Positions 3,525 to 29,259 of a DNA stretch of 64,000 bases are shown here, piece by piece (the stretch's first letter is position 1; each line of letters starts with the position of its first letter). The stretch comes from Vitellaria paradoxa (lineage: Eukaryota; Streptophyta; Magnoliopsida; Ericales; Sapotaceae), in assembly GCA_019916065.1 (NCBI GenBank), contig CM034233.1, positions 15,665,009 to 15,729,008 on the forward strand, in the 5' to 3' direction. The translations under genes were made by a program, and so were the position numbers. The notes beneath the pieces were generated by a model. That model was not told where the DNA came from. It searched no databases and saw only the letters and a program-made list of their open reading frames with translations.

Positions 3525-3558
<34 letters not shown>

Positions 3559-3851
3559 TATATATGTGGTAAGAATAAATGGTACTAATTAAACTAGAAA
3601 TGCTTGGACATACTCTACGGTTTAAAAAGGAAAAGCTAGCCTTTTTAGGCAATATTTCAACCCATACAAAGCCTTAAAATAAAAGTAGTAATATATGCAT
3701 TAAAGGATATTAAAGGACATAGATAAAATTCCTTAAAGTATAATAAAGATGTAGTTAGTTGACCCTTTAATTGTATTCCGTTCAAATATTAAGCAATTTA
3801 TCAATTGCTTGAAGTCCCATTTAATAAGGAGCTCTTAAATTAAAATATACG

Positions 3852-3883
<32 letters not shown>

Positions 3884-6382: not shown

Positions 6383-6422
<40 letters not shown>

Positions 6423-6758: not shown

Positions 6759-7164
6759 AGGCCCAGTAAAAATAATTATTTCTGCTGTTTTAAAAAATTA
6801 CATTAAAAATTTATTAGATTTCCTCTAATTTTTTTTCTAGTTTGTTCTATTATTATTAAGTTTTTATTTCATTGTATTTTTATTTTTATTTATTTTCAAA
6901 AAAAAAACTATCTTTATTAATTATAAATTCTAAATTCTGAATCGTGGGAGGGAAGCTTGCCTTGCCATATTATATTAATTCAAGTTTGAACTCAACTTGC
7001 TAAGGAAGCTGCAGGTTGATCTCACCTCGACATGCCCTTTATTTCTTCATTCATAATTAATGGTTAATCAGTGCGAAATTCACTGGACAGCCAATCTTAA
7101 TCAACAACTGTCAATGAATAGTAACGTCAATAGCGTTTCGCCTGCGTAGATGTTTGTAATGATC

Positions 7165-7520
7165 GATGTTTACGGTGCTGTTTGCACGAGCAAAAGTGAT
7201 TAATATTTAAAAAAAGTGAAGAATATCTATTATTTTTTAATATTTAGAAAATTAATCAAATTTTATTAAAATAATCTATTGAAATGATAAAAAATAATTT
7301 GTTTTAATGATTTTGGTCAAAAATAAATACGAAAAGTTGATAAATGTTGAAAAAATTAGGAAAAAGTAGATAATTTTTTTATAATTTTTTGTAACTTTTT
7401 GTAAAATTTAAAATTTTAAAATAAACATACAGAAAATAAAAATAACAAAAATTTGTAAAAATAGGTAAATATTTATAATTTTTTTATAACTTTTGTTTTT
7501 AGCCCAATCAAACGGGCTTA
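7165..7520 (-). repeat. MITE-like AT-rich element (copy A)
   Basis: An AT-rich block of about 350 bp ending AGCCCAATCAAACGGGCT on the plus strand and beginning GGTGCTGTTTGCACGAGCAA. Its reverse complement aligns over its whole length with 43252-43600, and the ends are imperfect inverted repeats (GGNNCNGTTTG...GAGC). It is present at the matching place in copy B (26295-26640), so it predates the duplication. No coding capacity. The superfamily is not clear from the ends. Confidence 0.6.
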
Positions 7521-8175
7521 CATTTCTGATCTGTCTCTTTCATACTAATGGGACCATAATTATTAAAGGTAGATCATAATCATAATCAATTAATTAATTG
7601 ATTAATTGGTTACCAGTAATGTTCTCACACTGATTGGCCGCACTACATACAGCAAAGGAGACCTTTGCTTGACACCTAATTCTCCCTCAAAAACCATAAA
7701 ATAATTCATAGAAAAGTTGCTTTTCCCAAAGTGTGAGCAACCTACTTTGACAATTATTTGAAAATTAATGTTGAAAATTTTGTAGGAATTACTTATTTTA
7801 ATGTAACGGTAAAGTAAAATATAACAATTCTTTAACACTCCGTTAAGAATTATAAATTTGATATGATTTTATTTCATTTAATGAAAATTTTTGAAATTTT
7901 ATGAGTTAAATTTGATTTCTTTTCATAGTTTAAATTTAAAAATTTCCATATCATTTGAATTTGATTCAAAATAATAAGATTTAATAATAATTTATTATTT
8001 TCTTAAGTTATCTAAATAATATCATAATTAACATATTTTTTGTTTACTATTAATATGATTAAATTTAGTATTTTTCACCAATTAAATTAATTCAATTCTT
8101 AAATTCAAAATCTACTCCAAATAAAATTTTAATTTATTAAATCAAATCAATTCTTTATTTTAAAATCAAATCAAT

Positions 8176-8350
8176 TTTAGGCCCCGCTTAGTCAGCCAAA
8201 AACTGCCGAAAGTTACAAAAAAGTTACAAATATTTATCTACTTTTGCCAACTTTTATCATTTTCGTTTTTTGTGCTTCTATTTTTAAAATTTAAATTTTA
8301 CAAACTTTTACAAAAAAGTTACAAAATACTGCAAAAAATTACCCACTTTT
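8176..8350 (+). repeat. Truncated member of the same MITE-like family (copy A)
   Basis: Starts GGCCCCGCTTAGTCAGCCAAAAACTG and matches the first half of the 43252-43600 element, then runs into unrelated sequence at a CCCACAAGG boundary. The equivalent in copy B is at 27302-27465. Non-coding. Confidence 0.5.
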
Positions 8351-9125
8351 TCCCACAAGGAAGGAACCTTGTGTCTCATAGGACATGCCCCAAATTATTG
8401 ATATGATTAAGCAGGTGTATTTTTTGGTTGTGGTTTCTATGGTTCTTATACTCTTAGACCATGGGTTTTTTGATAGAACTATGGGGTAGTGTGGGTTGGG
8501 AGTGATTTTAGGTTTGAATTTTGTTTAATTGTTGAAAAAGAGTGATTCCGAGATATTAAGAAATGAAAGAGGGACGTTTTCTCTCAAATTTAACTCTAAT
8601 ACCACGTTAAAACATCCAATTCAAAACTAATTGGTAATAAATGAGAAAGCTTATTAGGATTTATATAATTTAAAAGGCACTATTTTATTCCCAACAGACA
8701 ATTTTTCTTTGACATTACTCCTTTGACTTCCATTTGTTAGGCATGCTACCACTGTTCATCCTGATCCAGGATCGAGCTTTCCGGGAGATTCAAATTAGTT
8801 TTTGGATTTTATTGTGACACATGCAAGTCTGAAGTGTATAGGGGTAGTTTTTTGTGTAGAAAAATTTTGCATACATGAGTTACATTCCCATGATTCTTCC
8901 TTCTTATAAAGTTACTTTACTTATTGGAATTTCTTTTTTTTTTCCACGAATATTTGTTGCTTTGGCTCTTGCTGCACTAAACCCATAATTTTTTTTTTTT
9001 TTTTGGTTTTTGAAATCTTATGAAATTCTTTTTTTTTTTCCTTTTTCAAGAATATTTGTTGCTTTAACTCTTCCCGCACCAACCCCATTATTTATTTTTT
9101 TTTTCATTTTTGAAATCTTATGAAT

Positions 9126-10384
9126 TCATTTCCCTCTCTCTCTCTCTCTCTCTAGCTTCCTCTTGGAAAAGGGAGATGATCAGAGGGAAACCCCGCTAAC
9201 AAAAGTCATATATGTAATTGAACCAATTTGACCTAGTTCTTTACCTCATAATTCCGTTGTTTAACTAGGACTGCGGTGGGTCAAGACTTTCCATGCCAAC
9301 CTTTGATGGTTGTGGCTGAAATAAAAGATTCGTGAGGGGGGAAAAAGTATGAGGACTTTAATTATTTATATATTTATTTTATATAATTAATTAATAAAAA
9401 ATAAAATCTTTCATAAATATTTTTTATTTGTCTATTTTTCTAAACGTATTAAAGAGAAATAAATATTTTTTTATTTTTTTCTTTTATTTGCCAGCTCTAA
9501 TCTTTGTTAACAATAATAAAATTCAAATGAGAATGAACACACAGACGTTGCTAATTGATAATGAAAGGAAAGGTATCTAGTTTAGAATTTTTTAATGCAC
9601 AAAATGCCGTGGACTAAGTTGGTTAGAGGATGAACTAATTATGTGACTTTGAGGCACATAAAGCACATAAGTGATTATTGTCTTACAATATTCCTGCAGG
9701 GTTAATTAAAGATAATTCTCCTAATTCAAAATATAACCATATAACCAACTCTGTGAAATAATAAAGGGGCTTTTGGAAGGATCATTTTTAGTAAAAAAAT
9801 TACCAATTTTTTATTCTCTAATGTTTGGCAAACTATCAATTTTTTCTACTTATAGTAACTTTCAATTCAAAAATTATCAAAAGTTGTCAAAAATTATATC
9901 AAACAGTCAAAAGTTGTAAAAAAAAGTTACTAAAAATTACTACTTATTTTACTAAACATATCAAAAATTATAACCAGTAACTTTTAACAAAAATTACTAA
10001 AAATTGTGTCTCTAAATACCCTCTAAGTTTTTAAGAAATTTATAGATCTTTTTGAATTGAGCTTTTCCTTAGAAGTTTGTAAAATCAATAATGAAAAATG
10101 TAAAATTAAATGCTAAATTCTGATATAATAATTTCTCGCAAAGCATTGGAGTATTTTAAATATTTATTAATAAAGGCATCTTAAATACATGTGTTGAATT
10201 AAATAAATTATGTGGAAGTCTTTTGAATTTTTTTTTTTTAATTCAAACAATCTTTTGAAGTTAGGACAACATAAAATACCCAACATTTCGTCAACAATGC
10301 AAGTTATACCTAATACATTACTTCAACATAAACGTATATTATCTTTGTCCCCCGGGGGGAAAAGTACTGTATTTGTTAGCAAAG
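9126..10384 (+). other. Spacer between duplication copies, with one MITE-like element
   Basis: Sequence not shared with copy B. It begins with a CT microsatellite at about 9132-9154. At about 9767-10025 lies an AT-rich block whose ends read GGGGCTTTTGGAAGGATC and, on the other strand, GAGGGTATTTAGAGACAC. Both then continue with the same bases (TTTTTAGTAA), as expected for a short inverted-repeat element. No gene seen. Confidence 0.55.
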
Positions 10385-10730: not shown

Positions 10731-10793
10731 AGTGATCCAGTCTCTGCTCAAAGGCACATGTTATCTCAAAGTTTAGCCTAGGAACTTGGAAGT

Positions 10794-12460
10794 ATGCTCT
10801 CAACATGCATTGATCACCTCAAAGCCCAACCGCTATGGATACTTCTTCTTTCCTCCCTTGGTTTCCTTTCCCTCTTCAAACAAGCCACCTCTCTCCTCAA
10901 ATGGGTCTTCATCTCCCTCCTAAGACTACCAAAGAACCTCAAGAAATATGGTTGCTGGGCACTCATCACAGGATCCACAGATGGCATCGGAAAAGCCTTT
11001 GCCTTCCAACTAGCTCAGAGAGGCCTCAACCTCATTCTGGTTGGTAGAAACTCCCACAAACTCAGATCAGTCAAAAGTGAAATTCAAGCTCAGTATCCAG
11101 ACACCAAGGTCAAGGTTGTCCTCCTCGACTTTTCCGAAAATGTTGCCTCCGGAGTGAGAGCCATAGAGGAGGTGGTTGAAGGGTTGGATGTGGGTTTGTT
11201 GATCAACAACGTTGGGGTTACATACCCGGCGGCGAGGTTCTTCCATGAGGTGGATGAGGTGGTTTGGATGAACGTGGTTAGAGTGAATTTGGAGGGCACC
11301 ACTAGGGTTACCAGAGCTGTTCTTCTGGGGATGCTTAAGAGAAGGAGAGGTGCAATTGTTAATATTGGCTCTGGTGCGGCCTGTGTTGTTCCTTCTCATC
11401 GTCTCTATGCTGTCTATGCTGCTACCAAAGCGTATCTCTCTCTCTCTCTCTCTCTCTCTGTGTTAGTGCTGTTACACTAGTTTTCTCATTACAGCCAAAC
11501 CTTATTGGATAATTCGATTGCATAATTTAGGTTTGAAAATTTAGGCTGTTTTTGGCAATATTAGGTAGAATGTTAGTGTAAAAGTTGTGAGTTTATCATT
11601 TTAGAATAATAAATTATTTATGTAAAAAGATTTTAGTTATAACATCAGCACTCATCACATCTTGTTATACTTTCTAAACAAATTTTATAGTTAAACAACA
11701 TTTTTCATTTGTTGCTAGGGGTAATGTTTCTATCGAATTATACGTTCACAGTGTTTTGACCAAGAATTTGCTAAGGAAAAAAAAAATAACGAAATTACTT
11801 ACATAATTCATATTTTATGATTAATTAAATGAAAAATTAGAATTTTTAATGAATAGATAACTATTTATTTTCTCATCATTTTTTTTAATCTGTCTAACAC
11901 TTCTCTATGATCATTTTTTAATTTGTTTCTTATTTATTTTTTTCACTTTTCTTTCTCATCTACAAATTAATTAACTCAGGACGGTTAGGTGGGGAAAACC
12001 AAGTGATGATTTGCTTTTTCAGTTTCTATTTTATTGGTTTGGTGTCAGTCATCCTTTTGGACCTTCTAATCTTCTGGTACGTGGAAATCCGCAGCCGCTA
12101 CCCCGTACTGGGGTGCGCACAGGGCGAAGCATGCTCCAGCACCCGAGCCAGCAACGGCCCCTGGAGAGTTAACCAGCCTAGGCAAGCCCTGGCTGACCGG
12201 CACGACCGAGAGGAGGCCTTTAGGCTCCTGCCATTATAGCGGTAACCCACCCCCCATGGAGGAGTCGAACCCGAAACCTCGAGAGGTTCAAGCTCTTAAG
12301 ACAAGCCCGACTTCCACTCGGCCACCCCCGAAGGGGCTTTGGACCTTCTAATATTCATATGAGTTGAGGTAGCCTTTCCATTCCACAAAGCCTTGTTGGT
12401 TCTGTAAACACAGATACACATTAATTGGTTGCTTAATGTCAGGGCCATTATAATATCCTC

Positions 12461-12491
<31 letters not shown>

Positions 12492-15400
12492 ATATATATA
12501 TATGGTAAGAATAAATGGTACTAATTAGGGGTTTTTGGAGGCCGGTCATAATTTATAGACTATTAAGGGTTTAAGTCATACCCTTAAAAATTATTTGCAA
12601 ATAAGTCATATGGGCACCGAAAAGACAAAAAAGACCTCGCGCATCTTTTCACTCACAAAACCAGTTTATTTAAAAACCTCCCTGTTTTATCGGAAACGTT
12701 CCGCGACTTTCCAACTTCTTCACAAATCATCTGAAAACTAATCAAAACTTCTTCCAAATCAAGCCTCAATCGATCCCTAACTTTTCGCCGAGCAAATCCA
12801 CACATTACAGTGCTTCGCAATCAACAGGTACTATATTCGATTAAAGGTACTCTTTAGGGTTTTTCTTCAAAACACATATCGAGGGTTTGAATATTTATTG
12901 TGTGGTACTGTTTAGGGTTTTCGATTATCTTTGTAATAACAGGTTTTGTGGTACTGTATTATGTATTTAGTTTCTCCGAAAACGTATAATCGTTGCTATT
13001 TTTACAATAGCCTAATATGAAACATTACCACATACATGTGGTACTGTCATACATGCGATACTGTCTCTCATTCGTTTGATATTTGCAACCATTTTTGTGT
13101 TTAAATGTGATGTTTGCATGATAGAGTCATGCGGTACTGCTTTTGAACGAGCATGCATTCTAAAAAAAAACAGTACCGCAGATATGTGGTACTGTCACAC
13201 ATGCGGTACTGTCTCTCATTCGTTTGATATGTGAGCCATTTTTGTGTTTAAATGTGGTGTTTGCATGATAGAGTCACGTGCTACTGTTTTTGAACGAGCA
13301 TGCATCCTAAAAAAAAACAGTACCGCAGACTATGGTACTGTCACACATGCGGTACTGTCTCTCATTCGTTTGATATGTGAGCCATTTTTGTGTTTACATG
13401 TGATGTTTGCATGATAGAGTCGTGCGGTACTGTTTTTGAGCGAGCATGCATCCTAAAAAAAAACAGTACCGCAGACATGTGGTACTGTCACACATGCGGT
13501 ACTGTCTCTCATTCGTTTGATATGTGAGCCATTTTTGTGTTTACATGTGGTGTTTGCATGATAGAGTCACGTGGTACTGTTTTTGAACGAGCATGCATCC
13601 TAAAAAAAAACAGTACCGCAGACATGTGGTACTGTCACACATGCGGTACTGTCGGTTATTCGTTTGATATGTGAGCTATTTTTGTGTTTACATGTGATGT
13701 TTGCATTATAGAGTCATGCGGTACTGTTTTTGAACGAGCATGCATCCTAAAAAAAAAACAGTACCGCAGACATGTGGTACTGTCACACATGCGGTACTGT
13801 CGGTTATTCGTTTGATATGTGAGCTATTTTTGTGTTTACATGTGATGTTTGCATTATAGAGTCATGCGGTACTGTTTTTGAACGAGCATGCATCCTAAAA
13901 AAAAAAACAGTACCGCAGACATGTGGTACTGTCACACATGCGGTACTGTCGGTCATTTCATTGTATGTGTGATTCTCTTCTTTGTTTAATGGTGCTCTTT
14001 GCATGATATAATCATTCGGTACTGTTTTTGCGAACCAAGCATATTTTGTGAGACAGTACCGCATGTGTGGTACTGTCAAACATGCGGTACTGTCATAAAA
14101 GTGGTAATGTATCTAGATGATATTGCATTTTATCTCTAACAGAAAACAAATGTTACGAAAATACAGGTATTGCTATCACGCTCATACAAAATCAAACATG
14201 GTGAACATCCAGTACCGTTCGAACCTAATCTCAGTCATTAATGAAGTTGAAACCATCAACTTGACAAAAGCACACCATGTATATCTCAAACATTCTCCAT
14301 TTTGGAAGCTCATCCTCACTATTTTAAACTGTGAAATTAACAAAGATTACTCGAGGAAAAGCGATGTTGATGTGGAAACAATCATCAAAGCATTTGACCC
14401 ACAGTCCAAATCTTTCAACCTAGGTGGAATAAAACTTCGCATCAGAGAGACAGAGTTGCGAACAATGTTTGCAATAGAGGATGGTGAACAACTGATAGAC
14501 AGTGTCAAAAAAATCGCAAGGCCAGGCACTGAATTCGTCTCTCGTAGATTCTCTGGATTGCGACGAATTAAGAAACAGAACATATCTGATGCTTTGCGGC
14601 AGGCTGCTGCAGAGCAAACACGCATTGGCAGAGAAGATGTTGCAAGACTTTTGACACTGTTCTGTTTGGCAACGTTGTTTGTCCCTAACAAAGGACATTC
14701 ATTGTCGTGGCACTACACAACATTGGTTGAAAATTTGGATCAAATCCGCCAATACAACTGGAGTGCACATATACTGGAATTCTTGGAGAACAGTTTGTGC
14801 TCAGATTCTAGGAACAAAGGTGTTGCAGGCTGTGTCATGATGTTACCGGTAACCTTTTCATATCATATTCTATATTATATGTTGGTACTGTCTTATGAAC
14901 TTCATTCAACTAATCAGCCCTATAAATGATGCAGTACTGGATCTGTGAGCACACCACTCTGGTCCAACAAGTACAGAAGAGTGCAACACCCAGATGTCTA
15001 GTCTGGGATCTCAAGCCATTGTCCAGTGCATTGAAAAAAATAAATCTCAAAAAGTTGAATAAAAATCAGGTACTATTTATGATAAAATAGATCTTGTTTG
15101 CATGCTAAGAATATTCGGTACTATTTTTCCAATAGATTCATCTTCATCTTTTACAAAAAACAGTACCGCATACATGTGGTACTGTCATCCGTGCATTAGG
15201 TACTGTGTTTCAAAGAGCATGCATTATTAACAAAACAGTACCGCAGACATGTGGTACTGTCAGTTATTCTTTGAATTTGTGACCTATTCTTTTTTCCATG
15301 TATGCGGTACTGTTTTGTTGTGTTTCATGATACTGTTTGAATGCTATATACATTCGGTACTGTTTTTGAACGAGCATGCATCCTTAAAAAACAGTACCGC

Positions 15401-18400
15401 ATACATTTGGTACTGTCATCCATGTGGTACTGTCAGCTATTTTGTATTTGTCACCTCTTTTTGTATTTCATGATACTGTTTGCATCTGATAAATAAAATC
15501 ATTCTAGATTCAACAATGTATTCATGGACATACTAATGAATTATATAATTGATGAACAAAATATCAGGTCATTGTACCTAATCTTGATGATGATGATGAG
15601 GAGGATGACGAGGAGGAGGATGGACAACAACAATTTCATGATGATAATGATGATGATGATGATGATAATTATGATGATGAAAGGACAGAAACAGAAGAAT
15701 ACATCATTGCGTCAGAAAAAACCAGTGATGATGAATTAGTAATTTCTGACATTCTTCAAAAACTGAAGACAAACATAGTGCATTTGAGCAAGACAACTGA
15801 AAGCGAGCGAAAACAAGAGGTGTCTTGTACTCCTGAACTCGATCAATCTGGTACTGTTCCATCTGCCATAGCTGAAAGGCTTCCAGAAACAGTACCAGAA
15901 TCTGATGAACCAGAACAAAAGGCACCAGAACAAGAGGCAAGACAGGCTGCATCAGCAGAAACAGTACCAGTTCAGCAAAGTAATGATCCAGTTGCTTCAG
16001 TTTTATCAATTTTGAACCGTGAACAAATAGAAGAGCTGGAGCAACAAGTCAAGGAAAAAGATGATAAAATTGCTGAATTGGAGAAGCAAATGGCAGAAAA
16101 AGATAATAAAATTGCTGAATTGTAGAAGCAAATGGCAGAAAAAGATGATAAAGTTGCTGAATTGGAGAAGCAAATGGCAGAGAAAGATGAAATTCTGACA
16201 AAGTTGTACATTGACAATGAAAATCTCAACCTGCAAAACACAAACCTGAAGGAAAAACTTGATAATGTGAATGCAGTTGTTGAATTATTAAGGTCTGAAC
16301 TTGTCGAATCTAGCGTCCACCAGGTGACGCAGAAACATGCAGCAACTAGAAGGCCAAAGAAATCGGATACAAATAAAAAACAAACTCCAGCTGCAAACGA
16401 ACCACCTTCAATGTACAAAAGGCTCAAGGACAAAACACGCCAAAAGAAAAGAGATCCTGAGTTCACATACAGTGGTAAAAAGAAGGTTGCCAAAAAACAA
16501 AAGGCAGATACTGCGGCAGTTGTCATGGAAGATATAGAATCTGACATTATAGACATTGATCTTCTACAACTGTCTACACATCAAACCGAGCCCAAGCAAC
16601 CTTCGCTTAAGCAGATTATTTCAACTTTTCAACAAAACACACATCTATCGGCGGTAGAAAAGGAACGGATCTTAAAACTTATTGATAATGAGGGGAAAGC
16701 GTAAGACAGTATTTAACTCTTTCTTTTTTATTACTTGTCAATTATAAAAAAAATTACTTGCTATCATCTGGTACTGTTCTCTATTTTTTACAATAATTGG
16801 TACTGTCATTCCTTTATCTGGTACTGTTAACATAAACATTTCAAACTTAACTCATGTTGTTGTTGTTTTTTTTTTTTTTTTTTGGCTGATCTTGTTGACA
16901 TCTCACTGCTCACTGTATACACACAACACAGTGCAACTGTTTGGGCTGTACCAAATGAACCACTCTGCATGATCACCATTGAAGATATCTACAACCTCAT
17001 AGCAAATGAGAGTATATCAAACATGGTAGGCATATATGATTAACTTCTATTTCTACAGAATTAATAAAGTATGTTGACTATTTCTTAAATTCAACAAATT
17101 AATCTGATATTTACTAATCACAATATTTGCCCAGCTAATTGACTGTCATGCACGCTATCTAGAATCAACACAACATGAATCAGTCAACAGCACTTTCCCC
17201 AAAAGATGCTTATACTTCAGCAGTTTGTGTTGGGTAAGATTTGTGACCTCTTTCTGTGGTTAATTGTGCTTTTTGCATACTATATATATTCGGTACTCTT
17301 TTTCTAGAGCATAAATGTTTGGTACTGTTTTTCAAATAGCATTCATCTTATACATAAAAACAGTACCGCATACATGTGGTACTGTCATCTATATGGTACT
17401 GTCAGCCATGCGATGGATATGAGACTTCTTTTTTATTTTCATATTACTGTTGGCATACTACAATCATTCGGTACTGTTTTTACGAGAGCATGCATCTTGG
17501 GGGAAACAGTACCGCAAGCATGTGGTATTTGACAACATGTATTTTTTCTTGTTGCAGACATTTGTGGTATTTGAGAGACATCATGCAGGTCGAGACACTC
17601 AGATTGATCAAAAGCTGAAACTATCTGATACATACAGACTACTTGTATTCCCTTTGAATACAAGTGGAACGAGAATTCCTGCTGATCCCAACCATTGGAC
17701 CCTTTTGGTATTGGATAGAGACACGTGGACATGGACACATTATAATTCCATGAAACCACGTAGAGCAAATTCCAAAGATTTGTATCTTGAGGATGCAAGG
17801 AAAGTGGTAAGATTCTGTATGTAAATTTTATACATAATTTCATTGGTACTCTTTTCTACTATTTACAACAGTACCGGTTCTGTTTATTAAAACTCATACT
17901 GTCTCCACATTTGTCATATTGTATCAGAAAGAGTATGTGGAATTGAAACTTAAAGACCAATACCTCAATGATCCAATAACAAAAAATATTGAACATACCA
18001 GCATGGAATTCGAATACCCAATTGTTTCTGCAGCAAATTGCCCACAACAAGGATCTACAACGTAAGCCACACCCTTTTTTATTCATGCAAATTGTTGAAC
18101 ACCTCTAACTAAATTCTTACAATCTATAACATCTTGTGTGCAGTGTTGACTGTGGGCCAATGGTGTGCTACGTAATGCAATGCATATCAAATGACGAGCC
18201 ACTTGAACCCATGCTTTCAGAAGAAGCTGTACAAGCTTACAGAGCAAAGATGCTAACACAATTTCTGTCCATTAGTGATGTACAAACATTGTGATTGTAA
18301 TTAAACTGTATTAGTGCACACTCTGTTTCTTTTTTAACAAAATACTTGTATATTCAACATTCTTTTCCTGTAAATTGAATGATACAGTTTATGCTAATAC

Positions 18401-21400
18401 AAATAGTCAATGTCCAGTTAATGGTACTATTTGTGCAACATAAATAGTCATGGTTTTTGCGATTTTTGTATGATAACTCTTGGGATGTTGATTCTTGTTA
18501 TGTTGATAGTGCTGCAAAATAGTGCTGATTGATACTCTATTCGAAACAGTACCGGTATTAATATTAACAGTACCGGTACTGTTTTATACCGGTACTGTTT
18601 GTATGAAGTATCTCAATACCAACATATGCGGTACTGTCTCTCATTCGTTTGATATGTGAGCCATTTTTGTGTTTAAATGTGGTGTTTGCATGATAGAGTC
18701 ACGTGGTACTGCTTTTGAACGAGCATGCATCCTAAAAAAAAAGAGTACCGCAGACTATGGTGCTGTCACACATGCGGTACTGTCTCTCATTCGTTTGATA
18801 TGTGAGCTATTTTTGTGTTTACATGTGATGTTTGCATGATAGAGTCGTGCGGTACTGTTTTTGAACGAGCATGCATCCTAAAAAAAAACAGTACCGCAGA
18901 CATGTGGTACTGTCACACATGCGGTACTGTCGGTCATTTCATTGTATGTGTGATTCTCTTCTTTGTTTAATGGTGCTCTTTGCTTGTGAAAACACTTACA
19001 GCTATTGTCACCAACAAATTTTATGTCCTTTAAATATAAGAATGACAACGGTACTGTCTGCAAATATAAAATTAATACACTATTACAAACAGTACCAGTA
19101 TTAATAAAAACAGTACCGGTACTATTTTATACCGCTGTCATTCTCAATACCAACATTAAAAATGAATATCGCTGAATAAAAAACTATCACAAAATGGATT
19201 GAAACATACTCATTCTCATTATTAATTCAAAAACAGTACCATAACAAACAAACAATAACGGACTTCTTCACAGCATAATTTTGGGAGAAAAAAAAACAAA
19301 AAACAATTCAACTCAACGGCTCTTTGCAAGTCTTCTTAGTATGAGAGCCCATGCGACCACAACGACCACAACGAATTCTTCGTACAAGCTCACTAGTTGA
19401 TCTAATCCTACGCTTCTTCGGCCTTCCAGCTGGTCTCCGTGTTATTGGAGGTAATATTGAACTATTACTGTCTGTAAACTCTTGGATTATGTCTGTTGGT
19501 ATTGGAACAATCACACCTTCATATGCCAATTTGTAATTATCAACATGAAAGTACTCATCAACAAACTCACTCAAAGGTCTGTTAATCCTCCCAATAACAG
19601 CAAATGCATGAGAGCATGGAAAACCAGAAATTTGCCAACCATAACAAGAACATGTACAATTCACCAAATCAACAGTTGTTGAAGGATTAGAAAATACTTC
19701 ATAAATACTATCTGAACACATCTTGATGGTCCATGTTCTACCAGCATCAACAAGTGCATTAAACTTCTCTTCCATTCTTGGACATAGAACACCATTCCAC
19801 TTTGTAGCATCGAGCTTTCTTATGGCAAACCATTCCATTAATTTAACCCTTATCTTGTCAACCAAATGTGCCACTGGCATATTTCTTGCATCAAGAATCC
19901 ATGAGTTAAAAGATTCAATGGCATTTGAAGACATCTCACCATACCTTCTACTACAAGAATACGCATTAGTCCAATTTTGCACAGGCAATCCACTCAAAAA
20001 GTTATCCACAATTGCACCCCCTTCCCTCTTCAAAACATCTAACTTCTCCTTAAATGCTGCAACTGTGGGAGCATAAGCACACTGACAAAACAAGTTCACA
20101 ATGTATTCACGGGATCCATTAGATCTGTTACCACGACTAAATTTATCTCTTAAATTATTCTTCAAATGCTGTAGACAGAAAAAGTGATGACATGTAGGAA
20201 ACTTAATTGGCAAAGATTCCATCAATCCAGGATTTCTATCGGAAATAATTGTAAAATCTTCAGAGGGGTTCAATATCTCATGCAAATGACCTAGGAACCA
20301 AGACCAATTATCGAAATTCTCTGAATCAACAACAGCAAATGCCAATGGGAATAACCCTGCAGATGAACATAAAAACAGTACCGAATTACAAAACAGTACC
20401 GCATATTAAAACAGTTCAAAAAAAACAGTACCATTCTTTGTATGGTGTACTTGTGGTCGTTGAATACCAGATACATTTGGTACTGTGTTATACGATACTA
20501 CATCTTACTAAAAACAGTACCACATAATAAAACAGTACCGCACAAAAACAGTACCGCACAAAAACACTACCATTCTTTGTATTGCTAGATACATTTGGTA
20601 CTGTGTTTATACGATACTACATCTTACTAAAAACAGTACCGCATAATAAAACAGTACCGCAAAAAACAGTACCACATAATAAAACAGTACCGCATGAAAA
20701 CAGTACCACATAATAAAACAGTACCGCACAAAAACAGTACCGCACAAAAACACTACCATTCTTTGTATTGCTAGATACATTTGGTACTGTGTTTATACGA
20801 TACTACATCTTACTAAAAACAGTACCGCATAATAAAACAGTACCGCAAAAAAACAGTACCACATAATAAAACAGTACCGCATAAAAACAGTACCACATAA
20901 TAAAACAGTACCGCACAAAAACAGTACCGCACAAAAACACTACCATTCTTTGTATTGCTAGATACATTTGGTACTGTGTTTATACGATACTACATCTTAC
21001 TAAAAACAGTACCACATAATAAAACAGTACCGCAAAAAACAGTACCACAAAAAAGTATGAACATTAACATACCATTATTCGCATCCTTGCCAGTAGCTGC
21101 CATCAGAATACCCTTGAAACGTGACTTCAAGAAAGTACCATCAATAAAAATGATAGGCCTGCAATATTTGAATCCACGTATACTGGCCCCAAATGATACA
21201 AACAACCGTCTAAACCGGTTTATACCGTCATCCACATCCAACACAATATGACTACCTGGGTTAAGATCCATTGCAGCCTTCACATAACAACTCAAGTTAT
21301 TAAACGAATCAGCATACTCACCATAAATCATGTCTTTAGCTTTCTCTAAAGCACTCCAAGCCTTATCATAGCTAATTTCCATGCCATAGTTGTTTTTAAA

Positions 21401-24400
21401 AAATATAATAACGTCGACCGGCGACATTGAAGGTTTTAATGCTACTTGATCAACAATCAACTTACCTAAAGATTTCCTGCTCATCCTCTTAGACCTATCC
21501 CTAATAATTGTCGGACCACAACTGTGAATATTGTTGAATTTCCTTATGTAAAAATTACGATTAACTTTTGATAACGATGCAACAATTGACCACGGACACC
21601 CTTCAGCGAACTTTTTTGCACAAACAACTTCGACTCTATCCTTGTTATTCCTCTCATACAAAAATTCAAAGCCAACCTCTGTAGCATATCGACAAATTGC
21701 ATCACGAAACTCATCAACACCTCCTACGAATTCCTGTCCCACGCTCAATATTAATGACGACCAATTAGAACACAACAATGGTTTATCCTTACGGCTTGAA
21801 ATTGAACTACGATACACATCAACATCACAGCAATCATCATACGAATCCAGACCAGTACCAACATCACCAATTGGCACACTATTAGAAACAGTACCGGAAC
21901 TGCTGGAAACAGTACCGGTACTGTTTTGGATCGGTACTGTGTTCAAACCGCCGAAAAAAACATCAATCGATATATAACACAAACCAACCATGCGAGCCAA
22001 CATAATCATATTTTGAAAATCAACATCGTTTCTCAGAAAACATGAAGAATGTTCATGGATTGAGTAACTAAATGATACATTTTCCAAATTCAAACTCGAC
22101 CAATTCTCACACACCTTTAACGCAAAATCTGAAAATGACATTTCACAGTTCAAATTGACTACAAAAGTCTCTGTACCAAACTTACATAGCAGCATCAAAT
22201 TCGAAGACATGACTGACCGAAATCGTTCACAGCACAAACTCACCCAAATGCGTAATCCAAATCCGTACGTATTCCTTCGACCGACGTTAATCTCACTGCA
22301 AATCGTGTAATCTGTATCTATTTCTTCATATATAATCCTTTAACAGACTTTTTATCTCACTGTATGCTTGTTCACGCGATCTATAAGGAATGAAACAAAA
22401 AACGGAAAACGTGATTCTCGGTTCCATAATTCTCGGCAATTTCATATCAGTTAATTATAGATAAAAGGGCATTTAAGTCATATTATAAATTATATTTAAA
22501 ACAAACTCGTGGGACCCACTCAAAAGTGTGACTTAAATACAAAACTTTCCACATTAATATGACTTAAAAGCAATACTTTTTTTTTGGTATGACTAATATC
22601 TTTAAAAGATTACAAAGTATGACTTGGATACAATTTTCCGTACTAATTAAACTAGAAATGCTTGGACATACTCTACGGTTTAAAAAGGAAAAGCTAGCCT
22701 TTTTAGGCAATATTTCAACCCATACAAAGCCTTGAAATAAAAGTAGTAATATATGCATTAAAGGATATTAAAGGGCATAGATAAAATTCCTTAAAGTATA
22801 ATAAAGATGTAGTTAGTTGACCCTTTAATTGTATTCCGTTCAAATATTAAGCAATTTAGACAATTGCTTGAAGTCCCATTTAATAAGGAGCTCTTAAATT
22901 AAAATATACGTATATATATATATATATATATTTAGTTACTTTAAATCTATACTCTCCTTAATTTTAATACTTATCTTAATTTCAAATAATTTTACAACTT
23001 ATCTTAATTCATAACAATAATATGTATCTAAAATATATTTATTAAAAAAATTAATTTAAATGAAATCTATTTCCTTTTATTTTCACCAATAATAAGATAT
23101 TTTCTCTCATCTCTAATTCTAAAAGTGACTATTATTACTTCCAAATTAATTATGTAATAATTGTCTCAAATTATTGTTTAAAGAACTATACTAAAATAAT
23201 TAATAAGTTAGAAAATTATCTTTAACTAAAACTTTTAAAATATTTCATATTATACTAAAGATTTTAATATATTTGAGTTTCATTTCAAACATTAGATAAA
23301 ATTCAGTTATCCTCAACTACTATATTATTCGAAATATTTTCATCTCTTGCACGAACAACTCTTTTGCTAGGAAAATAGTGTGAATATTTTATCATAACTA
23401 AGTTAATTAGATTTATTTTAGTAATTAACAGATAAGTTATTTTTACTTTGACGTCTCCTTTTATTTGTTTTATATGATTTTTTTATCAAATTTTTATTTT
23501 ATTTCTATTTTTTCGTAATTTTTAAGTATGTTCTTCCCATTTAGAAAAAAAATTTCGAAATAAAAATTTTTAAGCACTTTTCACGTCCTAAATATTAGTA
23601 TATAAAAAATTTTTAGACTTATTTTTTTTTCCCGTTCTCCAAGCCCTCAAATAGTTTCTCAACCCAAGTAACTCTGCTTACAGTTGCTGCTGGCAGTAAT
23701 AAAAGTTCAAAACTCTTATGGGTGTTTGTTTACGAAACTTTATCAAAAATAACAAAAAAAATTATAAAAAATTATCACGCACTTTGTTTAATTAAATTTT
23801 ATCACGTATCATTTTTATATTAATTTTATTATTATTATTATTTCACCATCAAAAAACATCTTCTAAGTTGGATGGCCTTGTCCGCATAGCGTCAGGTGCT
23901 GGACCTGCAAATTTGCACGAAATCTGGAAAATATATTCACTGATTGTTTTCTGGTCTCTTCGCATGTCTGCCACCCGTGAAAATGAATTTAGACACACAA
24001 AACTTGCTGTCAAAACGCATTAATTCTCTTTTTTTTTTTCACGTAGATATGTTGATCAATTGTCAAGAAGTCTGCATGTGGAATACAAGCACTGCGGGAT
24101 AGATGTGCAATGCCAGGTTTGGTGAATCCATGAATCCATTTAATTTTCAAATCCTTGACTATCCATTGAATTCACAGCCAATAAAGAAAATACAACGTTG
24201 TTCTGAAGAAAGCCTAAATCTATTAATTTCAATTATTATCTGAACAAGTTTCTCCTCTCTCAAAACCACCAAGATGTATACCTACAACGTGTATAACACG
24301 AAATTTGGGACAAATATATCATATTTTATATATATATATAGAGGGTGTGTTTAGAGTTGTATAAAAGTATATAAAATAAAATAAAATTGTAAAGTAAATG

Positions 24401-25877
24401 TCTCGTAATTCGTGTTTGTAGAGATTTGTAAGATTTTATTTTATTTTGTAGAGTTCCAAACGGAGCCATAGTAAAGTATGGTAATGCCTCGATGCAAAAC
24501 TTAACTTGTGTTATGATTATGACACGTACTACTTAATTATAATTATCTTGTGTCACGTAAAACTTAACTTATCATACCGTTGTAACAAATATATGATTGT
24601 GACACGTGTCACTTAATTATAATTTTCTTATTTATCTTATAAAAAAAATTAGTATTTTAAATAATTATTACTTATTCACAATTTTTAATTTTATTCAAAC
24701 TAGAACGTTCATGAATATCATATGATACTTTGATTTAATCTATACTTCTATTTATCATATGATGTCTTATTTTTTATTTTTATTTTTATTTAAAACTTAT
24801 ACTTATTTTTTATTTTTTGTATATTTTAATAAATTATTATTTAACACATAATAAATATTATTATTGTTATTAAACATGATAATGCAAAAAAGTATTTAAC
24901 CTATTAAATAAAGTTTTTAATAATAAATATTATTATTATTAAACAAAATAATGTAAAAACAATACTTAGCCTATTAAATAAAAATTTTAATTTATTAACA
25001 TAAATTTATAATTATAATTATCTTAATTTATAATTGTATAATTTAAATAAAATTAGTATTGTACATAATTACAATTCATTCACAATTTCATTAAAAATAG
25101 AATGTTTGTGAATGTCACTTGATATTTTTATTAAATCGATATTGCTATTTATTTATCATATAATTTCTTATTTTTAATTTTATTAATTTAATAAATTATT
25201 ATTTAAAAAATAATAAATATAATAATAATTATTATTAAATAAAATAATACAAAATATCATTAGACAAAATAAGTGATATCTTAAATCAAATTGAAATGTT
25301 GGTTATTAAAATTGCATATATATTGTAATATTATTTATTAAAAAATATCAAATAATATTAGAAATTAAAAAATAAAATTAGCAGTGCCACTCACACTTTT
25401 TAATGAGCTTCCTGGGAGTATTCTACAAATATATGATTTTGTAACACTTCTTAAGCTCTATAACTAAACATTCTAATCTTAAACTTTGACATATTAACTT
25501 ATGTTTTTACGTTTATACATATATATATGTACGTATAAATAACCTAACAATTACAATTAATTAATAATCTTACTTGTGCTATTCATTTAAGTTAATTGAT
25601 ATGGGAACTGATCAGTACTCCCTAAATTCAGGTACCTTTATATGTTTCAACCAAAATGGCCTCAAAGGTTGCATCAATAGAGAAACCATCATTCTTCACG
25701 CCATCAGCGGATCATTATGCGCGATCAGCAGTTCAACAGATAGGCTACGAAGCACGGTGCATGCCTTACTGGACACACTCAATCCAGTGGTTCTTTGTCT
25801 CCCTGTTGCCGGAAGTTGCCCTCGATTCGTGGCGCCTTTCCATTGGAATTCATAGGAGGCATAGACAGACAGACTAA
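10794..25877 (+). CDS. Very-long-chain 3-ketoacyl-CoA reductase-like protein, copy B (3 exons, 317 aa)
   Basis: Exons 10794-11431, 24047-24116 and 25632-25877 join in phase to 954 nt, 317 residues, close to the usual length of plant KCR proteins. Splice sites are AAAGC/GTATCT, CACGTAG/ATAT, CAG/GTTTGG and TTCAG/GTACC. The product is a short-chain dehydrogenase with a hydrophobic N-terminal segment (about 13-33), the cofactor glycine motif GSTDGIGKA, LINNVG, and the catalytic YAATK (Tyr-x-x-x-Lys). KCR enzymes reduce 3-ketoacyl-CoA in the endoplasmic reticulum elongase complex. Oddities: the C-terminus ends HRRHRQTD rather than in a lysine-rich ER-retrieval tail; Arg replaces conserved Gly and Pro (VVRVN, SHRLY) close to the active site; intron 1 is 12.6 kb and holds a SINE and a whole MULE. 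The frame is open, but function and expression are doubtful. Confidence 0.8.
12075..12337 (-). mobile_element. tRNA-derived SINE in intron 1 of copy B
   Basis: This 263-bp GC-rich insertion is flanked by a near-perfect direct repeat, TTTGGACCTTCTAATCTT on the left and TTTGGACCTTCTAATATT on the right. Copy A has the single uninterrupted site. On the minus strand the first 80 bases look like a tRNA of the Ser/Leu class: TGGCCGAGTGG as box A (12324-12314) and GGTTCGACTCC as box B (12271-12261). The 3' end reads ATTTCCACGTACCA directly against the duplication, with no poly-A or poly-T tail. No protein is encoded. Identification as a SINE rests on the pol III boxes plus target duplication; the family is not recognised. 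Confidence 0.85.
12519..12527 (+). repeat. Left 9-bp target site duplication of the MULE
   Basis: TACTAATTA, repeated exactly at the right end and present once in copy A (3583-3591). Confidence 0.95.
12664..12827 (+). promoter_or_regulatory. Left-end promoter region and untranslated first exon of the Ulp1-like gene
   Basis: A TATA-like TTTATTTAAAAAC (about 12664) is followed by a non-coding stretch ending TCAACAG/GTACTATATT at 12827/12828, a good donor. The matching acceptor is TATCTCTAACAG at 14142, eight bases before the ATG at 14150. This gives a 1.3-kb intron in the 5' untranslated region, filled by the 147-bp tandem array. Inferred from splice signals; the transcription start is not visible. 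Confidence 0.55.
13050..14100 (+). repeat. Tandem array, about 147-bp unit, six to seven copies
   Basis: The GGTACTGT that begins the same unit recurs at 13205, 13351, 13498, 13645, 13793 and 13942, giving periods of 146, 147, 147, 148 and 149. The growth comes mainly from a lengthening A-run before ACAGTACC. Each unit holds about four octamers, including a hairpin ACAGTACC-10 nt-GGTACTGT. The array fills the 5' untranslated intron of the Ulp1-like gene. Not coding. Confidence 0.92.
14150..18294 (+). pseudogene. Ulp1-like (C48) protease gene of the MULE, 8 coding exons, one internal stop
   Basis: Coding exons 14150-14848, 14935-15069, 15568-16700, 16932-17025, 17135-17233, 17558-17806, 17928-18061 and 18144-18294 join in phase with GT/AG borders to 898 codons. 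Exons 1-2 hold a conserved N-terminal region (GCVMMLP, YWICEHTTL). Exon 3 has an acidic Asp/Glu run, a linker with three octamer-encoded TVP or GTVP motifs, and a coiled coil of 14-residue repeats (EKQMAEKDDKIAEL type). Exons 6-8 hold the Ulp1 core: His in NHWTLLVLD, the position usually YDS reading YNS, and Cys in VDCGPMVC. A single TAG at 16123-16125 replaces a Glu codon in one coiled-coil repeat; all else is open. Ulp1 proteases cut SUMO-type modifiers. In this element the gene occupies the mudrB-like position, convergent with the transposase. The Asp to Asn change could weaken activity. Confidence 0.85.
18295..19307. other. Convergent 3' spacer of the MULE
   Basis: About 1 kb between the stop codons of the two convergent genes. 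Holds a perfect 16-bp palindrome ACAGTACCGGTACTGT at 18567-18582, further octamers, and two to three units of the 147-bp repeat (18620-18960). Presumably contains both polyadenylation regions. No gene. Confidence 0.75.
18620..18960 (+). repeat. Second, shorter array of the 147-bp unit
   Basis: The unit from 13050-14100 reappears here in the same orientation (unit starts at about 18631, 18775 and 18925), complete with the hairpin and the TCATTCGTTTGATATGTGAG core. The same repeat thus sits in the 5' intron of one gene and in the 3' spacer 5 kb away. Confidence 0.9.
19308..22210 (-). CDS. MULE transposase (2 exons, 728 aa)
   Basis: Exon 1 runs 22210-21073 and exon 2 20356-19308; they join in phase (AATG/GTATGT ... 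TCTGCAG/GG) to 729 codons including stop. ATG at 22210 is preferred; upstream codons in frame are not ATG. N-terminal all-beta PB1-like region (1-85), a linker with octamer-encoded TVP/GTV (about 88-120), a MuDR-type zinc/DNA-binding region (about 155-230), then the MULE DDE core: Asp in FIDGTFLK (about 356), Asp in IISDRNPG (about 419), CLQH, and Glu in SSNAIESF (about 527). A SWIM zinc finger (CTCSC...PCSH, about 613-629) and a zinc knuckle (CGRCGRMGSHTKKTC, about 710-724) follow. No internal stop or frameshift seen, so the element could be autonomous. It cuts and inserts the element through its ends. Confidence 0.94.
20357..21072 (-). repeat. Transposase intron: dense octamer array with 184-188 bp higher-order unit
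   Basis: This 716-bp intron holds about 27 octamers, mostly AAAACAGTACCGCA or AAAACAGTACCACATAATA in head-to-tail order. A larger unit containing CTACCATTCTTTGTATTGCT recurs at about 20568, 20752 and 20940. Removing it restores the transposase frame. Confidence 0.9.
22211..22640. promoter_or_regulatory. Right end of the MULE: transposase upstream region
   Basis: 430 bp between the transposase ATG and the element end. No exact octamers. The last 200 bp hold several copies of AAGTCATA-type sequence on the minus strand (about 22515, 22560, 22592, 22620), with one more in plus orientation near 22473. The left end has at least two in the opposite sense (about 12572 and 12601). Candidate transposase-binding or cleavage signals; inferred from placement only. 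Confidence 0.5.
22641..22649 (+). repeat. Right 9-bp target site duplication of the MULE
   Basis: TACTAATTA, after which the sequence resumes as in copy A (AACTAGAAATGCTTGG). Confidence 0.95.
24341..24467 (+). repeat. Small MITE-like insertion specific to copy B (127 bp)
   Basis: Absent from copy A, where TATATATA runs straight into GTAAAGTATGG. It begins GAGGGTGTGTTTAGAGTTGTA and ends GAGTTCCAAACGGAGCC, imperfect inverted repeats with internal TTTTATTTTATTTT. Similar ends occur at 49131 and 56007. Lies in intron 2 of the reductase gene. Confidence 0.65.
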
Positions 25878-28255
25878 AGGCCCAGTAAAAATAATTATTT
25901 CTGCTGTTTTAAAAAATTGCATTAAAAATTTATTAGATTTCCTCTAATTTTTTTTTTTTTTAGTTTGTTCTATTATTATTAAGTTTTTATCTCATTGTAT
26001 TTTTATTTTTATTTATTTTCAAAAAAAAATTATCTTTATTAATTATAAATTCTAAATTCTGAATCGTGGGAGGGAAGCTTGCCTTGCCATATTATATTAA
26101 TTCAAGTTTGAACTCTACTTGCTAAGGAAGCTGCAGGTTGATCTCACCTCGACATGCCCTTTATTTCTTCATTCATAATTAATGGTTAATCAGTGCGAAA
26201 TTCACTGGACAGCCAATCTTAATCAACAACTGTCAATGAATAGTAACGTCAATAGCGTTTCGCCTGCGCAGATGTTTGTAATGATCGATGTTTTCGGTGC
26301 TGTTTGCACGAGCAAAAGTTATTAATATTTAGAAAAAGTGAAGAATATCAATTATTTTTTGATATTAGGAAGATTAATCAAAATTTATTAAAATAATCTA
26401 TTAAAACAGTAAAAAGTAATTCGTTCCAACGGTTTTGGTTAAAAATCAATACGAAAAGTTGACAGATGTTGAAAAAATTGGGAAAAAGTAAATAATTTTT
26501 TATAATTTTTTGTAAAAGTTTGTAAAATTTAAAATTTTAAACTAAACGTACGAAAAATAAAAATGACAAAAATTTGTAAAAATAGGTAAATATTTATAAT
26601 TTTTTTATAACTTTTGTTTTGAGCCCAACCAAACGGGCTTACATTTCTGATCTGTCTCTTTCATACTAATGGGACCATAATTATTAAAGGTAGATCATAA
26701 TCATAATCAATTAATTAATTGATTAATTGGTTACCAGTAATGTTCTCACACTGATTGGCCGCACTACATACAGCAAAGGAGACCTTTGCTTGACACCTAA
26801 TTCTCCCTCAAAAAGCATAAAATAATTCATAGAAAAGTTGCTTTTCCCAAAGTGTGAGCAACCTACTTTGACAATTATATGAAAATTAATGTTGAAAATT
26901 TTGTAGGAATTACTTATTTTAATGTAACGGTAAAGTAAAATATAACAATTCTTAAACACTCCGATAAGAATTATAAATTTGATATGATTTTATTTCATTT
27001 GATGAAAATTTTTAAAATTTTATGAGTTGGATTTGATTTCATTTCATAACTTAAATTTAAAAATTTCTATATCATTTGAATCAGATTCAAAACAATAAGA
27101 TTTAATAATAATTTATTATTTTCTTAAGTTATCTAAATACTATCATATTTAACATATTTTTTGTTTACTATTAATATGATTAAATTTAGTATTTTTCATA
27201 AATTAAATTAATTCAATTCTTAAATTCAAAATATACTCCAAATAAAAAATTTAATTTATTAAATCAAATCAATTCTTTATTTTAAAATCAAATCAATTTT
27301 AGGCCCCGCTTGGTCAGCCAAAAACTACCAAAGTTACAAATATTTATCTATTTTTGCCAACTTCTATCATTTTCGTTTTTTGTGCTTCTATTTTCAAAAT
27401 TTAAATTTTACAAACTTTTACAAAAAAAAAGTTACAAAACACTGCAAAAAATTACCCACTTTTTCCCACAAGGAAGGAACCTTGTGTCTCATAGGACATG
27501 CCCCAAATTATTAATATGATTAAGCAGGTGTATTTTTTGTTTGTGGTTTCTATGGTTCTTATACTCTTAAACCATGGGTTTTTTTATAGAACTATGGGGT
27601 AGTGTGGGGTAGTGTGGGTTGGGAGTGATTTTAGGTTTGAATTTTGTTTAATTGTTGAAAAAGAGTGATTCCGAGATATATATTAAGAAATGAAAGAGGG
27701 GCGTTCTCTCAAATTTAACTCTAATGTCATGTTAAAACATCCAATTCAAAACTAATTAGTAATGAATGAGGAAGCTTATTAGGATCTTACATAGTTTAGA
27801 AAGCACTATTTTATTCCCAACAGACAATTTTTCTTTGACATTACTCCTTTGACTTCCATTTGTTAGGCATGCTACCACTGTTCATCCTGATCCAGGATCA
27901 AACTTTCCAGGAGATTCAAATTAGTTTTTGGATTTTATTGTGACACATGCAAGTCTGAAGTGTATTGGGGTAGTTTTTTGTGTAGAAAAATTTTGCATAC
28001 ATGAGTTACATTCCCATGATTCTTCCTTCTTATAAAGTTACTTTACTTATTGGAATTCCTTTTTTTTTTTTCCACGAATATTTGTTGCTTTGGCTCTTGC
28101 TGCACTAAACCCATAATTTTTTTTTTTTTTTTGGTTTTTGAAATCTCATGAAATTCTTTTTTTTTTTTTTCCTTTTTCAAGAATATTTGTTGCTTTAACT
28201 CTTCCTGCACCAACCCCGTTATTTAATTTTTTTTCATTTTTGAAATCTTATGAAT
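25878..28255 (+). other. 3' flank of reductase copy B
   Basis: Non-coding, colinear with 6759-9125. Holds the MITE-like blocks at 26295-26640 and 27302-27465 and poly-T tracts (about 28060-28230). A short internal repeat, GGGTAGTGTGGGGTAGTGTG, at about 27598-27620 is not in copy A. Confidence 0.7.
26295..26640 (-). repeat. MITE-like AT-rich element (copy B)
   Basis: The counterpart of 7165-7520, with more divergence than the flanking DNA (for example 26335-26465). Same ends (GGTGCTGTTTGCACGAGC and GCCCAACCAAACGGGC). Non-coding. Confidence 0.6.
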
Positions 28256-28260: not shown

Positions 28261-29163
28261 TGTTGGGCATAATAATACTAAAGCTGTACTCTTGCCGAAC
28301 ACATTTAGTCCGGTGCCACGTGGCGCGGTGCCGAGCAAATTCACATAAGCCACTCAGTCACTTGCCGAGCACGTTCCGTTTGGACACGTGGCCTCTTGCC
28401 GAACAACTGATTATTGGCACGAGGGTTCCACGTGAGTGATATACGTGAACACACGATTCAGAGTTAGTGTTCCAAAGAGTACCCTGAACCTCGACATCAA
28501 TAAACAGTGTATTGCCACGCGGCTATAGCCGAGGATCTTGGAAGCTAGTTTGCTCGGCCTATCTGTTGACGGCTAGTAAATGTCGAACCTGGGACCCACA
28601 GCCTTTAAAGAGGGCTCGTGACCATAAATGCACCTTAGTTAAGATTGAACTGGGTACTTGTCTCTGGGGGTGTAACTAAATCGGTCTATCTCGTCACGAT
28701 TTGGTGGCTGATGTGACAGGAAGACAGTCTGACCCTGAAATTCCGGTTGTAATGCCGTGTTAAGCCGCCAGAAGCATTAAATGAAAGGCATGGTGTATTA
28801 ATGAGGGGTCTGAGGCATTAAATGAAGGGGGAAGAGTATTTAAAGCAAGGATAGAAAAGAGGGACACGGCAGTGTCGTAACGTCAAGTCGCAGGTATGCT
28901 TTAATCATCACTCAGACCACTATATATAGGATGTTCTGCTGAACCACAAGGGTAAGCTGACTAATGCCAACTTAGACTTTGACTCTTTTATTTCCATAAA
29001 AACTTCTTTTGAGCGACTTGCTGACTTAATCATCGGAGGGTTTTCCGGCCTGAGACCTCCTCTCCGGCCGTCACCTTTCTTTCTGTCTTTGTTCGGCAGG
29101 TCGGCGATTGCATTTCCGGTTGGCGTGGTCAGCAGTTCCGGCGGTAATTTCTGCTGCCGAACA
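28261..29163 (+). repeat. 5' LTR of the Tat element
   Basis: 903 bp. A TATA-like TATATATAGG near 28921 would serve as the core promoter. Rich in GCCGA/TCGGC and CACGTGG/CCACGTG words (for example near 28316 and 28428). No difference from the right LTR was found by eye. Confidence 0.95.
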
Positions 29164-29165
29164 TT

Positions 29166-29183
29166 TGGCGCCCACCGTGGGGC
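29166..29183 (+). other. Primer binding site of the Tat element
   Basis: TGGCGCCCACCGTGGGGC, two bases after the LTR, the type found in Tat/Ogre relatives. TGG pairs with the CCA end of a tRNA. I cannot decide which tRNA from memory. Confidence 0.85.
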
Positions 29184-29259
29184 TCGTTGTCTAGCCCATC
29201 ATTGTGTTCACTAGCTTTTTTCTTGTTTCTTTGTTAAGTCTCCAGTATTTGTCCACATA

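Follow-up and report, generated by a model that had tools for sequence, protein, structure and literature searches.

A saturating octamer in a Mutator-like element of Vitellaria paradoxa as a probable landing-site array for the element's own VANC-type protein

Introduction

VANC proteins bind short, tandem-repeated motifs in the element that encodes them and strip that element of its methylation (Hosaka 2017). In Arabidopsis, VANC21 binds YAGTATTAY, a motif often tandem-repeated in the noncoding regions of VANDAL21; single-base changes cut binding strongly, and expression of the protein leads to methylation loss at VANDAL21 copies (PMC5735166). VANC6 works via the motifs AGTTGTCC and AGTTGTAC and acts also on AT9TSD1, motif-bearing elements unrelated to VANDAL (PMC5735166). 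RNA-directed DNA methylation (RdDM) opposes VANC in the same noncoding regions, and in Arabidopsis the targets of the two overlap (PMC10398659). VANC genes bearing an Ulp1 domain are known as KIU, and KIU VANDALs recognise motifs of their own kind, according to a review (PMC13317346); Ulp1-bearing Mutator-like elements (MULEs) are known in grapevine, melon and rice (PMC2528002). TnpA of Spm and MURA also lower the methylation of their own elements (PMC10398659). Here we analyse a MULE that carries 98 copies of one octamer and lies in a 64-kb stretch of Vitellaria paradoxa contig CM034233.1 (the window, in which all plain coordinates are counted).

The 98 octamers probably form a landing-site array for the element's own VANC-type protein, which we predict to bind them and to strip silencing from the element and its gene-less relatives, enabling transposase production and movement. 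We take them as such a target array because the element fits in its gene content, in the place and dynamics of its arrays and, in part, in the word itself. An earlier interpretation of the letters by themselves (the sequence-only reading) had offered a protein-binding site among several options, and this option is the best supported. It had also held that no described MULE has this property; that claim is wrong, since VANDAL21 and VANDAL6 of Arabidopsis carry short-motif tandem arrays recognised by their own VANC (PMC5735166). The VANC/VANDAL scheme itself is already known and the octamer word would be a new case of it; a literature search for its letters together with Mutator-like elements found no paper.

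Results

The octamer and the element that carries it

An exact recount gave 99 octamers (ACAGTACC or GGTACTGT) in the window, 98 of them at 12904-21940 within the element and the last at 54416. Dinucleotide-shuffled versions of the window held 0.81 on average and 3 at most, which rules out chance as the origin of the excess. The count of close to 100 copies in 9 kb in the sequence-only reading is therefore confirmed, as are the use of both orientations (46 ACAGTACC and 52 GGTACTGT on the plus strand of the element) and the placement in introns, spacer and coding linkers of two unrelated genes. The ends, bare in that reading too, are free of octamers over the outer 376 bp on the left and 700 bp on the right. 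By our own models of both genes, which follow splice signals and frame alone, 91 octamers lie in 5,280 noncoding bp (leader, introns, spacers) and 7 in 4,833 coding bp. Density peaks in the transposase intron, with 27 in 716 bp, and neighbouring octamers are most commonly 16-18 bp apart (39 of 97 intervals). One-mismatch neighbours number 25 beside the 98 exact copies of the element and 30 beside the single exact copy in the remaining 53.9 kb of the window. With low-complexity sequence excluded, no 8-mer exceeds 12 copies in any 10-kb bin that does not overlap the element. The parts of the element and its insertion site are as follows, with strand given where one applies.

3583-3591: empty site with the same 9 bp as the target site duplication, in the other copy of a segmental duplication
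12519-12527: left target site duplication, TACTAATTA
12528-22640: MULE of 10,113 bp, delimited by duplicated flanks and the empty site; first bases GGGGTTTTTGG, last bases CAATTTTCCG
13020-14094: 147-bp tandem array upstream of the VANC-like ATG, typical unit with 4 octamers
14198-18294, plus strand: VANC/KIU-like gene with eight predicted exons (splice signals, frame, Pfam) at 14198-14848, 14935-15069, 15568-16700, 16932-17025, 17135-17233, 17558-17806, 17928-18061 and 18144-18294
15160-15485: diverged members of the 147-bp family within intron 2 of the VANC-like gene; the intron holds 10 octamers
15850-15968, plus strand: three octamers within the coding sequence of the VANC-like linker (GTV, TVP, TVP)
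17320-17527: diverged members of the 147-bp family within intron 5 of the VANC-like gene; the intron holds 6 octamers
18546-19240: 14 intergenic octamers; this stretch includes 147-bp units (18622-18983) and the palindrome ACAGTACCGGTACTGT (18567-18582)
19308-22210, minus strand: MuDR transposase of 728 aa, exons 22210-21073 and 20356-19308, with DBD_Tnp_Mut, MULE and SWIM domains
20357-21072, minus strand: transposase intron with a 187-bp tandem array
21888-21940, minus strand: four octamers within the coding sequence of the transposase linker (TVP, NST, GTV, GTV), with the palindrome ACAGTACCGGTACTGT among them
22641-22649: right target site duplication, TACTAATTA

The element is a MULE by its MuDR-type transposase and its 9-bp target site duplication. 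Clear terminal inverted repeats (TIRs) are absent, as in VANDAL-type non-TIR elements, and there is weak imperfect inverted similarity at roughly 17-84 bp from either end, equalled by 1 of 500 controls. The empty site comes from a segmental duplication (2501-9125 and 11145-28255, pieces 91-97% identical) and matches the joined flanks of the element in 473 of 492 columns. Since one copy of the duplication holds the element and the other the empty site, the insertion is likely younger than the duplication.

The transposase is an open frame in two exons, with all Pfam matches over cut-off (DBD_Tnp_Mut 1.9e-12, MULE 8.4e-9, SWIM 2.2e-9); it has 113 homologues, and those that carry an organism name are plant proteins. 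The protein predicted from the second gene comprises a PMD-like (plant mobile domain) region, an acidic linker, a repeat-rich coiled coil and an Ulp1-type domain. This last domain is the Ulp1 (C48) domain of KIU type, at 37.5 bits against a cut-off of 20.7, and a PDB search with it returned six weak matches to sentrin proteases (SENP; E 0.32-0.55) spanning the DCG motif. The N-terminal region is 23% identical to a Hibiscus PMD-MULE protein over 97 columns. A PDB search with the N-terminal 262 aa gave a single chance-level match, of ArsR type (E 0.54), and an AlphaFold2 model of exon 1 alone was unusable (pLDDT 33). In Ulp1 proteases a catalytic residue is Asp; the domain at 17558-18294 reads HW...HYNSM...DCG, with Asn at what would be that place, outside the aligned part. 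Gene content and non-TIR structure agree with the VANDAL/KIU layout of PMC13317346, PMC2528002 and PMC6446971.

Arrays, flanks and coding copies

Grouping the 98 octamers by their flanks placed 78 in three groups, mainly the 147-bp and 187-bp repeat families, and 6 in two small groups. The other 14 share flank similarity with no other copy, or 12 if two that may be isolated only through indels (14053 and 20425) are dropped. Outside the arrays, 18 octamers occur in 7,391 bp where 0.13 are expected. The view that no single tandem expansion could have made this spread is correct, but several tandem expansions explain most copies. A single tandem array as the whole story is ruled out by the unrelated flanks, by the coding copies and by the conservation of octamer columns. 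Could the word instead be a recombination or gene-conversion hotspot that spreads its own sequence through the element? Such copying might leave behind blocks of the 147-bp family like those seen in the leader, in two introns and in the spacer, but conversion would bring flanks with it, and the unrelated-flank copies share none; we hold this explanation to be very unlikely.

The seven coding octamers compare with a mean of 0.965 in synonymous-codon shuffles, whose maximum was 5 (0 of 3,000 reached 7). They are read as GTV, TVP or NST, and it is therefore the DNA word, not one peptide, that recurs. The transposase linker bearing four of them is not conserved when the first exon is aligned with nine homologues. 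Across the 113 homologous transposases TVP was found 3 times and GTV 19 times, at most once per protein among the matches listed.

Thirteen units of the 147-bp family were aligned. Within the 5' array their octamer columns are 98.2% identical and the others 83.4%; between separate arrays the values are 91.7% and 72.3%. These two contrasts, within and between, were reached by 1 and 2 of 146 circular shifts and by 5 and 4 of 5,000 random placements. A functionless octamer, carried as a passenger of satellite-like repeats that expanded by slippage and unequal exchange, would suit the concentration of most copies in three flank groups of mainly tandem arrays, the variation of array size among copies and the unprotected octamer columns of gene-less copies reported below. 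Such a passenger would not be expected in unrelated flanks or in coding sequence in three peptide forms, nor to be better conserved than neighbouring columns between old arrays, and the same octamer recurs in arrays of differing units (147, 187, about 225 and about 255-270 bp). We regard a functionless repeat as distinctly improbable.

The periods of the arrays at 13020-14094 (147 bp) and 20509-21049 (187 bp) lie near the lengths of the nucleosome core and the nucleosome repeat, which may be coincidence.

The family across the genome

The genome, 667 Mb in 71 contigs, has 57,772 octamers and 18,595 copies of a reversed-word control; the spaced pair GGTACTGTN6GGTACTGT is present 1,215 times and its own control once. 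We chose 28 loci, all on contig C1, from listed positions of the octamer pair, so that they were selected by the octamer itself. All 28 hold an element with the termini of the window element (at most 6 mismatches in 22 bases and at most 5 in 20), 25 of them with an 8-10-bp duplication. These elements are 1.4-2.3 kb long and carry 13-30 octamers each, and their longest stop-free frames are 80-177 aa. The sequence around them holds 31 octamers in 129,754 bp, 29 of which fall in two further clusters (L019, L023). As a check independent of the pair, we took the first 100 plus-strand octamers of C1 (its first 2.34 Mb): 86 lie in five clusters and 14 are isolated, against about 32 predicted by chance from the reversed word. 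The sequence-only reading had named equal abundance elsewhere in the genome as a result that would tell against it. A genome-wide excess does exist, but all five clusters (L009, L010, L037/L038, L039 and L040) are members of the same family. One short motif is thus dense in the noncoding parts of its own family and low elsewhere, as expected of a VANC target array.

Two of the clusters, L039 (2,141 bp, 9-bp target site duplication TTTAAACTA, 34 octamers) and L040 (1,969 bp, 9-bp duplication TAAATATAA, 11 octamers in array units of about 225 bp), have these termini as well and bring the gene-less loci to 30, and every one of them, the 28 pair-picked loci included, retains arrays. L037/L038 is another long copy; it measures 9,650 bp, holds 80 octamers, has the same termini and has exons 97-100% identical where matched. 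Its transposase is damaged as well as its VANC-like gene. Within two to three bases after base 9721 of L037/L038 comes GGGGTTTTTGGA, the start of a further family member with a 147-type array behind it, and the two are adjacent or nested insertions.

Arrays of the L009 type resemble the transposase-linker region (element 9359-9506), and in L039 and L014 it is the 5' leader (element 484-1567) that the arrays resemble. The arrays of gene-less members therefore derive from more than one part of the gene-bearing element. Note that we do not claim independent origins for these lineages, because the left ends of L009 and L039 are 91% alike, closer to each other than either is to the window element.

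A genome search for the transposase gave at least 112 matches (55 of 2,923 candidates scored). Among the matches listed, which do not include the window's own copy, at least 13 have stop-free versions of both transposase exons with an identity no lower than 95%, and recent activity of the family is therefore probable. In stretches that span the transposase intron, a 99%-identical copy (L044, 1.8 kb) has 63 octamers and L045 (0.9 kb) has 26; five copies whose transposase is more diverged (L041-L043, L046 and L047; stretches of 0.8-2.8 kb) have 4-8.

CACTA and hAT elements carry clustered subterminal transposase sites. The octamer might by the same token be the binding site of the transposase itself, helping to build the transposition complex. 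The retention of octamers by gene-less elements, which would need movement in trans, accords with such a role, and TnpA of Spm and MURA also reduce methylation of their own elements (PMC10398659). The ends, however, are bare in all 32 elements, over at least the outer 282 bp on the left and 330 bp on the right. Octamer number ranges from 11 to 98 per element (11-80 over the 30 gene-less loci and the 9.65-kb copy) and from 4 to 63 in the transposase-intron stretches, with no sign of a fixed architecture. We consider a transposase site unlikely, though it deserves to be kept in mind.

In the arrays of 18 gene-less copies (from L009-L036), C/G positions diverge several-fold faster than A/T positions, as in methylated, silenced DNA. 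This would agree with an octamer that is a small-RNA or silencing target exploited by the host, and RdDM and VANC targets do overlap in Arabidopsis (PMC10398659). Such a target should nevertheless be lost, not multiplied and newly seeded, and we give this explanation almost no weight. An 8-bp word is also too short to be a small-RNA target by itself.

At three other MuDR-type transposase loci, 38-39% identical to a Rhododendron query (P0003) and read over 5.5 kb on the 3' side only, we found no octamer, no 8-mer above shuffled levels and no long neighbouring open reading frame (ORF). MuDR-type transposase frames at C6:15106886-15108706, C12:5085209-5086927 and C1:978279-985415 are stop-free and intronless in the matched part. 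Those on C6 and C12, whose 5.5 kb of 3' sequence lacks octamers, any saturating word and a long ORF, are possibly domesticated.

Comparison with described systems

The element resembles VANDAL21 (Hiun) and its VANC21 in being a non-TIR MULE with a second gene for a fast-evolving protein, in carrying one short motif many times over, frequently as tandem repeats, in introns, between genes and elsewhere in noncoding sequence, and in array size that differs between copies (PMC5735166). The location of the octamer array parallels VANC21 binding in VANDAL21, which falls in introns, spacers and other noncoding parts. Written as CAGTACCRC, the octamer is compatible with YAGTATTAY at 7 of 9 positions, a fit that 94 of 4,000 shuffles equal, uncorrected for the comparison of three motifs. 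There are also differences. YAGTATTAY stands mostly in one orientation, whereas ACAGTACC occurs in both, with palindromes and seven coding-linker copies; VANC21 has DUF1985, whereas the match of the window protein, under cut-off, is to PMD; VANDAL21 also carries a VANB gene, whereas two genes were found here. Binding and demethylation are demonstrated for VANDAL21, and for the window element both are extrapolated from Arabidopsis.

VANDAL6 and VANC6 follow the same scheme with another motif, which the octamer resembles weakly or at chance level. By published description, KAONASHI (KIU) elements are likewise non-TIR MULEs with an Ulp1 domain opposite in orientation to the transposase (PMC13317346, PMC2528002). 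MURA of MuDR and TnpA of Spm share with it an element-encoded protein tied to lower methylation of its own element; MURA, unlike the protein proposed here, is reported to act on TIRs (PMC10398659), and the ends of the window's family are octamer-free.

Evidence against a VANC-type target array

Several observations weigh against taking the octamers as a VANC-type target array. The comparison with the two VANC6 motifs was matched by 1,851 and 282 of 4,000 shuffles, a likeness at chance level and a weak one. The VANC-like gene of the window copy is broken by a stop codon in frame (TAG at 16123), and the gene is interrupted in both long copies read. Its N-terminal domain scores 32.1 bits against Pfam PMD (E 9e-8), 2.8 under the cut-off of 34.9; DUF1985, the VANC domain named in PMC5735166, is barely matched (E 0.13); and database homology searches with parts of the protein, the N-terminal domain included, found no relative.

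Resident copies likewise show little protection of the octamer. In 18 full-length gene-less copies, array octamer columns diverge by 0.0187 and other columns by 0.0172, and 92 of 120 shifted masks were as low as or lower than the octamer columns. Between the two long copies, octamer sites changed at 9 of 546 positions (1.65%) and other noncoding sites at 58 of 3,037 (1.91%), a slight difference, and 68 of 75 octamers were retained against 87% of 2,430 control octamers. The decay of the octamer after insertion keeps pace with that of its surroundings. Selection, if real, works on the spreading lineage, not on each resident copy. By an alignment-free count in gene-less copies, the octamer has 0.37 one-mismatch neighbours per exact copy, the fifth-lowest value among 74 frequent 8-mers (median 1.20); we do not use this as evidence because the word's high multiplicity confounds the count. 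Between the two long copies the VANC-like gene has a pN/pS of 0.48 and the transposase one of 0.69, on few changes.

Other features of the window

Outside the element, an LTR retrotransposon at 28261-40739 has 903-bp LTRs that are 100% identical, a GTATC duplication and frames for gag, reverse transcriptase (RT), RNase H and integrase. It also contains antisense open frames at 36738-39356, one with a weak Transposase_28 match, and a 113-bp tandem repeat of seven copies at 35094-35858, around which GCCGAGCA and GCCGAACA are frequent. A short-chain dehydrogenase frame lies at 10782-11480, with the segmental duplication. Rfam and tRNA scans of the window gave no matches.

Discussion

The mechanism that we favour follows that of Arabidopsis VANC21 and VANC6, by analogy with which the predicted PMD-like/coiled-coil/Ulp1-type protein would bind the octamer and cause methylation loss. 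Binding of the VANC-type protein to the octamers of its own element would free that element of silencing marks, and likewise its gene-less relatives, which would depend on this protein; loss of silencing would then allow the transposase to be made and family members to become mobile. Judged from the letters, arrays may enlarge both by tandem duplication and by single new sites, and may be retained because more sites recruit more protein. The octamer-free ends would leave the transposase's own sites undisturbed.

A wider proposal, which we offer tentatively and would not yet bet on, is that the octamer is a self-recognition address under selection strong enough to colonise the coding linkers of both genes. 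It would be the internal feature kept by gene-less relatives, whose lineages, with arrays from the 5' leader or the transposase linker, would spread as parasites of their parent's anti-silencing protein. The portions of the VANC literature compared describe neither copies in coding linkers nor arrays kept so widely by gene-less members; both may be known already.

If the octamers are indeed such a target array, a VANC-type address system operates in a plant genome of 667 Mb and is exploited by gene-less elements. The family members, with anything from 11 to 98 sites each, would then form a natural series for the number of sites needed in activation, and the same series could show whether it is the target arrays that determine which of the non-autonomous elements spread. 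A protein that recognises a dense 8-bp word might furthermore be put to use in targeted demethylation, as the Arabidopsis authors say of VANC (PMC5735166).

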